From the NCBI RefSeq assembly GCF_000266945.1, contig NC_018025.1, positions 4,964,001 through 5,028,000 of the forward strand: a stretch of 64,000 nt of DNA, read 5' to 3'. Of this stretch, positions 5,315 through 53,378 are shown piece by piece. Under the pieces are notes generated by a model. It did no database searches and had not been told where the DNA came from. It saw only the letters and a list, made by a program, of their open reading frames with translations. The position numbers and the translations under genes are program-made. This stretch comes from Desulfomonile tiedjei DSM 6799. GTDB taxonomy: Bacteria; Desulfobacterota; Desulfomonilia; Desulfomonilales; Desulfomonilaceae. How positions within the stretch are numbered: position 1 is the first letter of the stretch; each line of letters starts with the position of its first letter.

Positions 5315-5755
5315 GTGACCTCTGTTCTCCGAATGACTGAACAGCGCAGAATCATCCTGGAGGAACTCAGAAAACTCCGTACGCATCCAACAGCGAACGA
5401 GGTTTACGAAATAGTTCGCAGGCGATTGCCGCGGATCAGTTTGGGAACTGTCTATCGGAATTTAGAAATCTTGTCTGAAACCGGTATGATCCTGAAGCTT
5501 GAAATGGCCGGCACACAAAAGCGTTTCGATGGAAAAACAGAAAACCACTATCATGTGCGATGCCTCGGGTGTGGCCGGGTTGACGATGTTGCAATCGAAC
5601 CCATCTCTTTAATAGACAGCGCGCTCGACGGCGTGAGCGATTATCGAATTGTGTGGCACAGGCTTGAATTCATGGGGTTCTGTCCAAAATGCCAGTTTAA
5701 TATGAACGGTGTCCTAAAGAATAACAGCAAAGATTATTTGGGCAACAATCACTAG
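5315..5755 (+). CDS. perR: Fur-family transcriptional regulator, PerR-like
   Basis: Metal-dependent DNA-binding repressor of peroxide or iron response genes. The 146-aa protein has an N-terminal winged helix (T-A-N-E-V-Y ... S-L-G-T-V-Y-R-N-L-E) and a dimerisation/metal domain. Candidate regulatory ligands are H in T-H-P-T, D in K-R-F-D-G and the H-Y-H motif. The structural Zn site is C-L-G-C plus C-P-K-C. The K-R-F-D and H-x-H pattern matches PerR more closely than Fur. GTG at 5315 is preceded by GGAGC. It precedes rubrerythrin and desulfoferrodoxin, the usual PerR regulon in anaerobic deltaproteobacteria. A peroxide-sensing role is inferred. Confidence 0.88.
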   Translation: MTSVLRMTEQRRIILEELRKLRTHPTANEVYEIVRRRLPRISLGTVYRNLEILSETGMILKLEMAGTQKRFDGKTENHYHVRCLGCGRVDDVAIEPISLIDSALDGVSDYRIVWHRLEFMGFCPKCQFNMNGVLKNNSKDYLGNNH

Positions 5756-49393: not shown

Positions 49394-50908
49394 TCAGCGT
49401 AAAACCCTTCCCTTAATTGCATCTGCAACAGAGTGACTCAAGGTTATAGTCTTCCCGTCCTCAAGAAGCACCGACCACATAACCCCGTCCTCCAGCCTGG
49501 GGCCGATAGTGACTTTCTGTCCGGGGTATAATCCAGAGTTTTGTGCCTCAGCACCGACGGATTCAATAGAGACGGTCCGGCCCTCTCGCAAAATGCTCAG
49601 CGAGCAAACGTTCCCTGCTGCACACGAGACATAATTCTCCGGAATCTGAGCACCGTGAGGATCACGAATGGGATGCCCGAGCAGATCGTCTAGATACTCG
49701 ACCGAATCTCGGTCGTGCACGTGTTCCAGTTCGTGGGCTTTCTGGTGCACTTCGCCAGCAGGAATTCCTACTCGATGTAGATACGTTTCCCATAGTCGGT
49801 GCGCTCTCAAAATGCGGCGAGCTTCCCTCTCTCCATCCTGGCTGAGTGACAATCCTTCTGGAGTCTGCACGATAAGTCCCTCACGTATCATGAATTTGAG
49901 TGCCCGGGAAATCCTTTCCTGATCGGCCCCGATGACTTCCGTGAGCAGACTTCCGGTGGCCGCGGTTCCTCCCTGGCGAGTCAAGGTAACAAGGACGTCT
50001 TCAACCAGCTGCTCCGGAACCATTCTCCGAAGACGCATCCACCGTGCCAAAAGTCCATATTGAGGAGCAACTGTGAGGACGACAAGAAACTGAAGCGTGC
50101 AGAAGATCATAATTGCCCCACCGCCTGAAGAATCCAACCAGATACTCAGATACAATCCCCCCAGAACGCTGGTCACTCCGAAAACGGCAGACAACATCAT
50201 CATCCGATCCAGTCGGTCGCAGAGAAGGTATGCGGTTGCGGCTGGAGTGATCAGAAGTCCCACCACGAGAATTACCCCTACCATGGAGACCGCGCTTACC
50301 ACTACGAGTGAGACGCATGTAGTAAGTGCGTAATCGATGAGGACCACGGGCATACCGATGCTTGCAGCCATTACCGGATCGAAACTGGATAGTTGAAACT
50401 GTCGAAAGAAGAGTATGACTGTCGTTAATACAATAGATGCCGCTATGGCTGCAACCCACAAATCGTGATCTGCGACGCCGAGCACATCCCCCATGATGAA
50501 GTGTACAAGGTCAATGTGAATATAGTTGCGAAAGATGGATACCATTACCACGCCGGCCGCAAAAACTCCCGTGTACATGATCCCTATGGCAGCATCGTCC
50601 TTCACCCTGGAGACCCTTGAGACAAACCCTATGGAACCCACAGTCACCACTGCGGCTATGAGCGATCCCACAAGCATGGCAGGCGCGTACGCCTCGGTTT
50701 GAAAAGCGAGCTTCATAAAAAGATATCCACCCGCTACACCAGCTATCATGGCATGAGACAACGCATCTCCCAGGAAAGCCATACGACGTAGGATCACGAG
50801 GCAACCCACGACGCTGCATACGATTGCCGCAACTGAGCCTCCAATCAGCGCTTTCTGGAAAAAGCTCTGTTGAAGGGGATAAACCAGCGCTTTGTACACG
50901 AACTCCAT
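49394..50908 (-). CDS. Metal ABC transporter permease fused to a DtxR/MntR-type repressor
   Basis: A 504-aa fusion. Residues 1-~290 are an ABC-3 family permease with about eight membrane helices (R-R-M-A-F-L-G-D-A-L-S-H-A, D-A-A-I-G-I, P-A-A-T-A-Y-L-L). Residues ~296-368 form a winged helix. Residues ~368-425 are the DtxR/MntR dimerisation and metal region (R-A-H-R-L-W-E-T-Y-L, H-Q-K-A-H-E-L-E-H, D-P-H-G-A-Q-I-P), and ~435-504 an SH3/FeoA-like domain. The arrangement parallels Chlamydia YtgCR, where the repressor half is released from the permease. Its start overlaps the stop of the ATPase gene by one base. The transported metal (Mn, Fe or Zn) is undecided. Confidence 0.93.
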   Translation of the reverse strand: MEFVYKALVYPLQQSFFQKALIGGSVAAIVCSVVGCLVILRRMAFLGDALSHAMIAGVAGGYLFMKLAFQTEAYAPAMLVGSLIAAVVTVGSIGFVSRVSRVKDDAAIGIMYTGVFAAGVVMVSIFRNYIHIDLVHFIMGDVLGVADHDLWVAAIAASIVLTTVILFFRQFQLSSFDPVMAASIGMPVVLIDYALTTCVSLVVVSAVSMVGVILVVGLLITPAATAYLLCDRLDRMMMLSAVFGVTSVLGGLYLSIWLDSSGGGAIMIFCTLQFLVVLTVAPQYGLLARWMRLRRMVPEQLVEDVLVTLTRQGGTAATGSLLTEVIGADQERISRALKFMIREGLIVQTPEGLSLSQDGEREARRILRAHRLWETYLHRVGIPAGEVHQKAHELEHVHDRDSVEYLDDLLGHPIRDPHGAQIPENYVSCAAGNVCSLSILREGRTVSIESVGAEAQNSGLYPGQKVTIGPRLEDGVMWSVLLEDGKTITLSHSVADAIKGRVLR

Positions 50909-51675
50909 TAGCCGGATTCCTCTTGCGCTTTCAGGCCGGAAAAAACCCTGAGCTTCCCTTCGTACACTTCGCTGAGGAGGCCCGGGTTGAGTACGGTCTC
51001 AGGGCTGCCGTATGCATATAGTCTCTGTTTTATCAGCATGAGCAGATCAAAGTATTCCCCGGCGGTAGTCAAATCGTGATGCACCACGAGCAAAGTCCTG
51101 CCTGACTTCTTGGCGCGATCGAGAACATCGAGAATAGCTCTTTCAGTAGCAGCATCGACGCCGGCAAAGGGTTCGTCGAGCAGGAGTATATCAGCTCCCT
51201 GAGTGAGGGCTCGCGCCATGAAGACCCTCTGCTGTTGCCCCCCTGACAACTGGCCGATCTGGCGATCGCGAAATTCCTCCATACGGACCATTTCCAGGGC
51301 TTCCTGTACTATTTGCCAGTCGGATCGACTCGGATCTTTCCACCAGGGGATGTGCCCGTATCGGCCCATCATTGCCACTTCCGCAACAGTGATCGGATAG
51401 TCCCAATCAACGGCTCCCCGTTGCGGGACATAGGCCACCAGTCCCTTCGCCTGGGTTGCGGGAAATCCCAGGATCTTAACCGTACCGAAATCCGGTTTGA
51501 CAAATCCGAGTACTGCTTTTATGAACGTCGATTTTCCCGCACCGTTGGGTCCAATGATGCCTACTGAGACGCCCTGCTCGATACGCACGGATATATCGAG
51601 AAGAGCCGGTCTGGGACCGAAGCTTACGGTGAGATTCTTGACCTCGATTGCCGGGATGTCGTGATTAGTGGCCAT
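50908..51675 (-). CDS. Metal ABC transporter ATP-binding protein
   Basis: A 255-aa ABC ATPase: Walker A G-P-N-G-A-G-K-S-T, Q-loop region Y-V-P-Q-R, signature L-S-G-G-Q-Q-Q-R and Walker B L-L-L-D-E-P-F-A-G-V-D, then the switch histidine in V-V-H-H-D-L-T. The Y-V-P-Q-R-x-x-V-D-W-D-Y-P block is typical of Mn/Zn/Fe (TroB/ZnuC/MntB) importers. It overlaps the upstream 169-aa protein gene by 11 nt and touches the permease gene, so it is in a tight minus-strand operon with both. Confidence 0.95.
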   Translation of the reverse strand: MATNHDIPAIEVKNLTVSFGPRPALLDISVRIEQGVSVGIIGPNGAGKSTFIKAVLGFVKPDFGTVKILGFPATQAKGLVAYVPQRGAVDWDYPITVAEVAMMGRYGHIPWWKDPSRSDWQIVQEALEMVRMEEFRDRQIGQLSGGQQQRVFMARALTQGADILLLDEPFAGVDAATERAILDVLDRAKKSGRTLLVVHHDLTTAGEYFDLLMLIKQRLYAYGSPETVLNPGLLSEVYEGKLRVFSGLKAQEESG

Positions 51676-52174
51676 GATCAGTTTTCGCCTCGTGATCGGC
51701 CGGCGGAATGTTCAAAGAGAGTGAAGTCGCCAGGCGAAGCCCTGGTTCGGACCACAAAGTTTCCTCTGCAATTGTTTCGCCGTCGCGTTTGATGGTGACC
51801 CGATAGGCATGGGCACGACCAGCGGATTCCAGCGGCGGATTCGCCTCCACGTACAATTCGTTTTGACCTTCCGTCAGCCCTTGCACGTCTTCGAGTCGTA
51901 GTGGAGTTCCCTGTGCTTGATTGTCATCCTTGGCGAGCACCTGCTCACCGTTGATCTTCACTATTAACGACATAGGTTTGTCATCCGGATGTGCAAGAAG
52001 CGCAAAAGGGTCAGGTTCCAGTTTGGTAGTGGCAACAATCTCGAGAGTAAAATGCCCTGCAGCCGCAGTGGGACGGAATTCCGCGACAGCACGCTTGTCT
52101 TCGCGGGTGTGCAGATACCCGGCCACACCCCCCAGAATCAGGATCCACACCAAAATAGCTAGAATAGGCCGCAC
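51665..52174 (-). CDS. Membrane-anchored exported protein of metal-uptake operon, unknown function
   Basis: A 169-aa protein with an N-terminal hydrophobic anchor (I-L-A-I-L-V-W-I-L-I-L-G-G-V-A-G-Y-L) and a beta-rich periplasmic region (F-T-L-E-I-V-A-T, L-I-V-K-I-N-G, A-Y-R-V-T-I-K-R-D-G-E-T). The C-terminus has three histidines in H-E-A-K-T-D-H-G-H, which could bind metal. I do not recognise a named family. It sits between the substrate-binding protein (8 bp) and the ATPase (overlapping), so it is likely an accessory to metal import. Confidence 0.8.
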   Translation of the reverse strand: MRPILAILVWILILGGVAGYLHTREDKRAVAEFRPTAAAGHFTLEIVATTKLEPDPFALLAHPDDKPMSLIVKINGEQVLAKDDNQAQGTPLRLEDVQGLTEGQNELYVEANPPLESAGRAHAYRVTIKRDGETIAEETLWSEPGLRLATSLSLNIPPADHEAKTDHGH

Positions 52175-52182
52175 ACTTCACC

Positions 52183-53193
52183 TCAATGAAGAGCTGTTAC
52201 TATTGTGAGAACATTCTCTCTCATCATACCGATATATGTCTCTCCAGCCGTTCCGGCTTCACCCATAGAATCGGAATACAATTGTCCACCTATTTTCGTA
52301 CCCGTTTCTGAAGCGATCTCTCGCATTAATTTCGGGTTAACACTCGATTCTACGAAGAGTGCTTTCACACCTCGACTTTTAATGGATTGCATTACCTGCC
52401 TGAGTTTATCCGGGGTCATGCCCGCACCGAGTTCCGCTCCCGTGGACCAGCCTATTGGCGCTTCGTTCTTGAATCCATATTCCTTCGCGAAATAATTGAA
52501 TGCATCGTGACTGGTTACCAGTATTCGTTGTTGCGGATGTACCTGGTTGAACTGCTCGCGTATCCATGCATCCAGAACTCGTAATTCCTGCAAGTAGAGC
52601 TTGGCTCTGGCGCTGTATTCGACGGCTCCGTCGGGGTCCATCCGGGAGACTGCGCGGAGTATGTTGTTTACATAGATTGCTGCATTCCTCGGGCTAAACC
52701 AGGCATGTGGATCGTTTATCTGCTCGCCACCCTGCTCGAGCACAATGGGCTTCAGCCCTTCTGTTGCGGTGATGAGCGGCTTACCAGCATCCTTCGCCAG
52801 AGTTGCCATCCAGTTCTTGCCCTCCAGATGCAGACCGTTCTCGATGGTCAGATCTGCGCTTGCGGCAATCTGGGCATCTTTCGGGGTAGGCATATAGGTA
52901 TGAGGATCCGCCCCGGGAGCCAGAATGCTGACAACGTGCCATCGATCTCCCACAATCTGTCGAGCGAAATCAGCTATTTGGGTTGTTGAAGCCACAATGA
53001 CCGGTTTATGGGAACCCACTGGTTTTTCCGCCTGTTGAGCGTGCACATGTGAGACTCGGCCCCACAACATGAGAACACAAACCAGAAGGAACGATGTTAC
53101 AATTGTGGTATAAAACGTGCCTGAAATCGTATTACCTGCGGTTCGCTTCATCCAAAAAATTGTTTCACTATCATATCTGACTTCACGAGACAT
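52183..53193 (-). CDS. Metal ABC transporter substrate-binding protein (ZnuA/TroA-like)
   Basis: Periplasmic cluster A-I metal-binding protein. Likely ligands are H in D-P-H-T-Y-M-P, H in N-D-P-H-A-W-F-S-P, H in T-S-H-D-A-F-N-Y-F and D in Y-S-D-S-M-G. The third ligand is His as in TroA/ZnuA, rather than the Glu of PsaA/MntC. No long His-rich loop is present. The reading frame extends to 53376, but a signal sequence ending at V-H-A-Q-Q shows the start is at 53193 (upstream GGGGATT) or 53151. First gene of the four-gene minus-strand metal operon. Confidence 0.92.
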   Translation of the reverse strand: MSREVRYDSETIFWMKRTAGNTISGTFYTTIVTSFLLVCVLMLWGRVSHVHAQQAEKPVGSHKPVIVASTTQIADFARQIVGDRWHVVSILAPGADPHTYMPTPKDAQIAASADLTIENGLHLEGKNWMATLAKDAGKPLITATEGLKPIVLEQGGEQINDPHAWFSPRNAAIYVNNILRAVSRMDPDGAVEYSARAKLYLQELRVLDAWIREQFNQVHPQQRILVTSHDAFNYFAKEYGFKNEAPIGWSTGAELGAGMTPDKLRQVMQSIKSRGVKALFVESSVNPKLMREIASETGTKIGGQLYSDSMGEAGTAGETYIGMMRENVLTIVTALH

Positions 53194-53366
53194 TTCCAAT
53201 CCCCACACCTGTGGCGCCGAAGCGACAATAAACATCTCTGCTGCCTGGATTCCACAATACATTGTTTTGCACGAGTCGTCAAAGATGTGGTTTATTCGTA
53301 CAAAGGAATGAAGCGGAACGGATATTGAAAAATACCTTATTGTTCTGTTCTGAACGCAGATGACAT

Positions 53367-53378
53367 TAATGTACATTA
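53367..53378. promoter_or_regulatory. Palindrome, candidate metal-regulator operator
   Basis: TAATGTACATTA is a perfect 12-bp inverted repeat in the divergent region between the metal-uptake operon and the small gene at 53501. It could be the site for the DtxR-like domain fused to the permease. Position is suggestive only. Confidence 0.35.

Follow-up and report, generated by a model that had tools for sequence, protein, structure and literature searches.

A metal-importer permease fused to a DtxR-like domain in Desulfomonile tiedjei: a conserved metal site, a decayed DNA-binding face and a possible role in transport control

The window analysed here is a stretch of 64,000 nucleotides from Desulfomonile tiedjei DSM 6799 (NC_018025.1, positions 4,964,001 to 5,028,000). 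On its minus strand, ORF 49394-50908 forms one open frame, running from an ATG at 50908 to a stop at 49394 and encoding a protein of 504 amino acids; a frameshift was looked for in this ORF and none was found. This ATG shares one base with the stop of the ABC ATPase gene (50908-51675). The N-terminal part of the protein gives a full-length match to the ABC-3 metal permease family in Pfam (PF00950, residues 14-280, 1.3e-60), and the C-terminal part matches Fe_dep_repr_C (PF02742, residues 357-424, 3.6e-23). The DtxR helix-turn-helix (HTH) family PF01325 (Fe_dep_repress) has no match in the 504-residue protein, even at an E-value of 1. The AlphaFold2 model has a mean pLDDT of 88.5, with no residue below 50, and consists of the permease helices, a short basic helix (286-295), a winged helix (helices 319-326 and 330-342, strands 346-355), dimerisation helices and a beta-rich, SH3-like tail. 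Alignment with VIA-align 2 places residues 5-289 on the permease of PsaBC (7kyp; Z 33.5, 271 residues aligned, rmsd 2.3) and residues 297-429 on the manganese repressor DR2539 in its DNA-bound form (8pw0; Z 15.1, 133 residues, rmsd 2.5). The initial annotation had described a permease that continues in frame into a winged helix, a DtxR metal/dimerisation region and an SH3-like domain; the open frame, Pfam, the model and the structural alignment all bear this out, and the permease-DtxR fusion is confirmed.

Table 1. Features of the fusion gene and its surroundings, in positions of the window.
Feature	Position	Strand	Basis and remarks
SH3/FeoA-like C-terminal domain, residues 425-504	49394..49636	-	Model; tail lengths; FeoA match in 13/77 relatives
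Metal-binding/dimerisation domain, residues 356-424; presumed ligands H370, E374, H388, H392, E395, H396, plus D304	49637..49843	-	Pfam Fe_dep_repr_C; conservation
DtxR-like winged helix, residues 299-355; fold and Glu303-Asp304 kept, DNA face apparently lost	49844..50014	-	Alignment; model; no PF01325 match
Short basic junction, residues 286-298	50015..50053	-	Alignment of 77; helix 286-295 in the model
ABC-3 metal permease domain, residues 1-285	50054..50908	-	Pfam ABC-3; 7kyp PsaBC
ABC ATPase of the importer	50908..51675	-	Pfam; 1-base overlap with permease start
Conserved 169-aa cassette protein; a single TM-like helix at the N-terminus, then a beta-sandwich and a His/acidic tail at the C-terminus	51665..52174	-	Model; alignment
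Periplasmic metal-binding protein (SBP, ZnuA superfamily)	52183..53151	-	Pfam ZnuA 3.5e-82; His-His-Glu-Asp motif residues
Promoter-like site TTGACG-17-TATTGT, weak	53254..53282	-	4 such sites in the region vs 1.5 expected
Palindrome TTAATGTACATTA	53366..53378		Lies some 85 bp upstream of the promoter-like site; no conservation in relatives searched

The motif residues of the SBP are invariant in all 44 aligned SBPs, and we take the motif to be of the Mn/Fe type, the same as in the Mn importers of the PsaBC and MntBC type. On inspection, the SBP more likely starts at the ATG at 53193 or 53151 than at the called position 53376, because the called frame is longer than the signal-peptide-like start suggests. 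Elsewhere among the relatives, an apparent SBP-DUF169 fusion (L106) was rejected, as its frame runs through an assembly gap (X residues). The 169-residue protein has no Pfam family above the cut-off, no NCBIfam match and no Foldseek match at an E-value of 0.001. Its beta-sandwich is predicted with a pLDDT of 94, and in an alignment of 48 relatives the last 12 residues hold at least one His in 44 and at least two in 31; the protein is probably a periplasmic accessory of the importer. The D. tiedjei genome also encodes a second, unfused ABC-3-like permease (G000:C1:4135493-4136290, 31% identical), perhaps of a zinc importer.

A scan with the C-terminal domain, using one genome per GTDB species, returned at least 595 pattern matches and at least 566 confirmed relatives, the best 80 of which were studied. 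Permease and DtxR-like domain lie in one frame in 79 of these 80; the sequence at L110 is cut before the permease part and shows the DtxR part only, and hence is not counted as a fusion. Complete proteins number 76, with L057 and L103 cut in the permease part and L088 at its 3' end. The genomes are labelled Thermodesulfobacteriota, Planctomycetota, Myxococcota, Acidobacteriota, Bdellovibrionota, SAR324, Eisenbacteria and Bacteroidota. SBP, ATPase and fusion are all found in 65 of the 80 loci, 56 of which also have the 169-residue protein, and the usual order is SBP, small anchored protein, ATPase and a single permease-DtxR fusion. Nine of the 15 loci that lack the full set have less than 1.2 kb upstream of the fusion. 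The other six (L050, L055, L100, L109, L111 and L112) have at least 3.9 kb upstream, and a search at 1e-3 still found neither SBP nor ATPase there; not every fusion therefore sits in such a cassette. One permease ORF is present in 79 of the 80 loci and a second of at least 50 bits in none; L059 has an extra permease piece of 75 residues (19 bits). The SH3-like tail is absent from 14 of the 76 complete fused proteins.

When 297 genomes of the window's own phylum were searched with the full protein, 200 gave some match at 1e-20. Among the matches listed, those reaching past residue 400, besides the window's, are one in G088 (67% identity) and two adjacent ones in G161 (32-33%). In the latter genome (L005, 3-1466 and 1375-2769) two different permeases lie side by side and both are fused to a DtxR-like domain. 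Tandem permease pairs also occur in other Desulfobacterota, at L009 and L010 and, by the match table alone, in G099, G154 and G226; at L009 and L010 both permeases of the pair have a short wHTH-like C-terminal tail and no metal domain. In three related cassettes a second SBP-like gene lies directly 3' of the fusion (L035:6747-7640, L037:6676-7581 and L045:6721-7638). By these counts, such a fusion is not rare. Moreover, since the accessible part of a review (PMC5599777) attributes to Thompson et al. 2012 the finding of orthologous permease-repressor fusions in 11 phyla, the fusion architecture itself is already known and is not new.

For the residue-level comparison, the window protein and its 76 complete relatives were aligned (77 fused proteins). 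The junction is of fixed length: in all 77 rows the stretch from residue 275 to residue 313 is free of insertions and deletions. A Shine-Dalgarno sequence with a start codon falls within codons 281-303 in 11 of the 77, close to the background of 10.1% found over 1391 windows, and Met296 of the window protein is a Met in only 22 of the 77. An internal translation start that would give a free tail was thus rejected as a conserved feature. Judging from the alignment, the fused proteins conserve no flexible linker and no internal start; of the two routes to separate proteins that the initial annotation had named as counting against its reading, a frameshift was not found in the ORF and an internal start is not a conserved feature.

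In line with the initial annotation of the DtxR-like region, the residues of its ancillary and primary metal sites are kept almost without exception. With the ligand roles of the DtxR/IdeR/MntR positions taken from the accessible parts of PMC2628430 and PMC10317159, His370 (H79), Glu374 (E83) and His396 (H106) are present in all 77 fused proteins, Glu395 (E105) in 76 and His388 (H98) in 75. Asp304, at the position of Met10 and of MntR Asp8, is found in 76 of the 77, and the position of Cys102/Glu99 is occupied by His in 65 and by Glu or Asp in 12. The metal/dimerisation part carries 2.98 bits per position as against 3.01 for the permease, while residues 313-355 carry 1.60. In Pfam, PF02742 matches all 77 proteins and PF01325 none of them at 0.01. 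Likewise, the mean pairwise identity is 0.57 in the metal/dimerisation part (355-405) versus 0.23 in the HTH (312-346).

Standalone regulators behave differently. In 30 canonical DtxR proteins of the Desulfobacterota the pattern is reversed (0.42 in the metal part, 0.51 in the HTH); this set was chosen by PF01325, so that a conserved HTH is partly built in, and L164, a duplicate of L002, was dropped from it. A second control set consists of standalone proteins picked by PF02742 from 38 genomes that hold a fusion; 38 of these 43 proteins were classed as HTH-bearing, and five (L185, L191, L194, L203 and L208) were omitted on the judgement that their N-terminus has no recognisable HTH. The nine nearest standalone relatives (L176-L184) show identities of 0.63 in the metal part and 0.52 in the HTH over residues 317-346, where the fused proteins reach 0.24. 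A first control set, selected by best PF02742 score (L113-L142, 28 of 30 read), was not used as a DNA-binding control, because it is made up largely of DtxR-FeoA proteins that themselves have an atypical HTH. In their own right, the standalone DtxR-FeoA-like proteins L114-L142 combine a strong metal domain (CPHGKPIP type) with a mostly atypical N-terminus that lacks the usual DtxR HTH, and from their sequences they are perhaps another case of DNA-binding loss.

IdeR Thr40 and Ser42 are DNA contacts according to the accessible part of PMC8464063. Ser or Thr at position 332 (IdeR Thr40) occurs in 5 of the 77 fused proteins versus all nine nearest standalone and all 38 HTH-bearing standalone proteins, and at position 334 (IdeR Ser42) in 8 of 77 versus 8 of 9 and 35 of 38. 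Tyr or His at wing position 348 is found in a single fused protein, as compared with 9 of 9 and 34 of 38. The window protein itself has Arg332, where the contact is lost, and Ser334, where it is kept. The recognition helix remains basic in many fused members (Arg or Lys at position 335 in 63 of 77 and at 342 in 49 of 77), which could reflect a residual contact with DNA or with the membrane. In a tree of the domain, all 77 fused sequences fall on one side of a single branch with a support of 100/99, beside standalone proteins of the IdeR/MntR type, in an alignment of few columns whose bootstrap had not fully settled. From the residue counts, and from the placement of the fused clade relative to its nearest standalone relatives, we therefore conclude that the fused lineage has wholly or almost wholly lost its DNA face and that those relatives have not.

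The sequences upstream of the cassettes were compared from the same standpoint. The initial annotation had envisaged the tail acting at the palindrome near 53367. In the D. tiedjei genome TTAATGTACATTA occurs as this sole exact copy; a search upstream of 60 other loci, the nearest kin L033 and L034 among them, did not turn it up, and an operator at this site was accordingly set aside. Two palindromes are over-represented ahead of the SBP gene in a set of 41 loci that are planctomycete with one exception: TTTTG-N6-CAAAA (11 loci) and GTAGC-N4-GCTAC (7 loci), against a best value of 3 in 60 shuffles; with a slightly longer region the numbers are 12 and 8. A further 20 upstream regions, among them the window's, have no palindrome in common. 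Candidate metal operators TTTTGA-N4-TCAAAA and GTAGC-N4-GCTAC thus lie upstream of planctomycete SBP genes at L040, L054, L058, L068, L070, L077, L089, L091, L092, L105 and others, and inspection of four planctomycete sequences (L041, L062, L083 and L088) places the first palindrome, or an imperfect copy of it, beside promoter-like hexamers.

The presence of the first operator follows that of a separate regulator. An IdeR-type standalone regulator is encoded in the genome of 10 of the 14 planctomycete loci with TTTTGA-N4-TCAAAA versus 2 of the 28 without it (Fisher p 3.5e-5, a value that ignores shared descent and gaps in the MAGs), leaving four operator-bearing loci in genomes with no such regulator. 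For this count, nine loci with no SBP upstream sequence were dropped (L053, L055, L059, L071, L079, L096, L098, L100 and L110). L088 was scored as positive on a copy with one mismatch, its standalone regulator being a fragment of 42 residues at a contig end, and L041 and L062 were scored as negative despite their imperfect copies; the copy at L083 lies inside the longest SBP frame, before a later start. Twelve IdeR-type standalone regulators (six planctomycete rows among L176-L184, and the six of L254-L259) have the recognition helix PGTVTSM(L/M)K in common, with Arg for Lys in L179. In the fused proteins of the ten loci that share TTTTGA-N4-TCAAAA, by comparison, the recognition helices fall to 7% identity and the metal part never falls below 55%. 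The fused HTHs of the eight loci sharing GTAGC-N4-GCTAC are similar (0.55), but these loci are close kin.

A canonical standalone DtxR gene is found close to the cassette in 8 of the 80 loci: directly upstream in L035, L037, L045 and L060, at 1.4-1.5 kb upstream in L047, L080 and L097, and divergent in L090, with the second operator, GTAGC-N4-GCTAC, in between. In 17 of the 74 genomes searched behind the loci, mostly MAGs, no PF02742 domain was found other than the fused one; the scan covered all but the genomes of L057, L063, L064, L072, L099 and L103 (6 of the 80 loci). The D. tiedjei genome has one other PF02742 domain, in the standalone protein L002 (273 aa), whose neighbouring gene presumably represents the end of feoB. 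It also has three Fur-family matches, and one of these lies in the window, at 5327-5671 on the plus strand. In these sequence patterns, the planctomycete operators co-occur with a separate standalone regulator, and the D. tiedjei cassette, too, is presumably under a separate repressor.

Our best explanation for these observations, and one that we consider somewhat likelier to be right than wrong, is that the fused tail is a metal sensor put to a new use, the trans-inhibition of the importer to which it belongs. The gene would encode the permease of an ABC importer of the Mn(II)/Fe(II) type, working with the SBP, the anchored accessory protein and the ATPase, and its cytoplasmic tail would be a DtxR/MntR-type metal sensor that no longer reads DNA. 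Because there is one permease gene, the transporter would be a homodimer, with one sensor domain on each permease. High cytosolic metal would fill the conserved His/Glu sites and draw the two sensor domains together, as in the dimers of DtxR and IdeR; by way of the short, rigid junction, the permease and the underlying ATPases would then be kept at rest, and uptake would stop. Transcription of the cassette would be left to separate repressors. We infer each of these steps: the homodimer, the binding of metal, the dimer clamp, the inhibition of transport and the identity of the metal. At L005 both of the adjacent permeases carry the domain, as would be expected of a domain that needs to pair. 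A literature search, in listings mostly without subscription journals, returned no proposal of DNA-binding loss or of a gating role for such fusions. In a wider account, a DtxR/MntR-type repressor would have been taken over by a widespread clade of importers and deprived of its DNA binding, to serve as a metal-driven clamp that shuts the importer, while separate paralogues control transcription of the same operon; this account seems to us evenly poised between right and wrong.

Conservation of the metal site would also be expected if the tail simply received imported metal at the exit of the pore, and passed it on or stored it with no gating. The metal residues are nearly invariant and lie at a short, fixed distance from the pore, but a sink has no obvious need for a whole dimerisation domain and a wHTH fold, and we consider this alternative unlikely.

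The Chlamydia protein YtgCR (CT069) suggests another possibility, namely that proteolysis frees the tail to act as a metal-dependent repressor of the cassette. YtgCR is likewise an ABC-3-type permease in frame with a C-terminal DtxR-like domain in an importer operon, and cleavage of YtgR and its binding to DNA, at the ytg and trpRBA operators, have been reported, including in the accessible part of the review PMC5599777. The order of the domains is the same here, the metal residues are kept and the model retains the wHTH fold. However, the residues of the DNA face are lost and PF01325 is unmatched throughout, the linker is fixed and the internal start is not enriched, the window palindrome stands alone, and the planctomycete operators accompany a separate regulator. 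A YtgCR-like repressor is thus quite improbable: the parallel stands for the arrangement of the domains and is not supported for the repressor function, as far as YtgCR can be compared by description. The two systems differ further in that the YtgCR permease is thought to be a YtgC-YtgD heterodimer, according to the accessible part of the same review, whereas there is one permease gene here.

Binding of an operator by the uncleaved, metal-loaded transporter appears very unlikely. Membrane-anchored LacI provides a precedent in the accessible part of PMC5599777, and the basic recognition helix could be read in its favour; the loss of the DNA-contact residues and the divergence of the fused recognition helices under a shared operator speak against it. 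Hence, of the releasable or membrane-tethered metal sensor coupled to transport that was first proposed, the coupling of a sensor to transport stands, as an inference from the kept metal residues, whereas the repressor is not supported, since nearly all of the 77 proteins lack the DNA-facing residues while the metal half is conserved. Finally, a functionless leftover, as the decaying HTH part and the SH3 tails missing from some members might suggest, is hardly credible for a metal part that is as conserved as the permease across several phyla.

The preferred reading, a sensor that trans-inhibits its own importer, can be set beside known systems. The permease part resembles the PsaBC and MntBC-type Mn importers in fold and sequence (7kyp, 32-35% identity), but the solved permease chain of PsaBC (290 aa) has no such cytoplasmic domain. 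The tail shares with IdeR, MntR and DR2539 the wHTH and dimerisation fold and most of the metal residues; it differs from them in being linked to the membrane, in the frequent His at the Cys102/Glu99 position, and in the absence of the DNA contacts and of a PF01325 match. In MetNI and ModABC, according to the accessible part of PMC10710835, cycling stops once internal substrate has bound to a C-terminal domain at the dimer interface. By analogy, internal substrate on a cytoplasmic domain would stop transport here as well, and the fused protein does have a cytoplasmic domain with predicted metal-ligand residues (alignment and model). The sensors of MetNI and ModABC, in contrast, are carried by the ATPase and have other folds, while the one proposed here is on the permease and derives from a repressor.

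If this reading is correct, metal uptake would be controlled twice by sister domains, with repressors acting on transcription and a fused ex-repressor acting on the transporter. It would also add another kind of trans-inhibited ABC importer; the accessible part of PMC10710835 names MetNI and ModABC as importers with trans-inhibition, and none for Mn or Fe. Caution would then be needed in annotating such fusions as repressors on the precedent of YtgCR, a caution that would extend to the 79 among the best 80 relatives and likely to more among the at least 566. The family would represent a transcription factor turned into the gate of a transporter.
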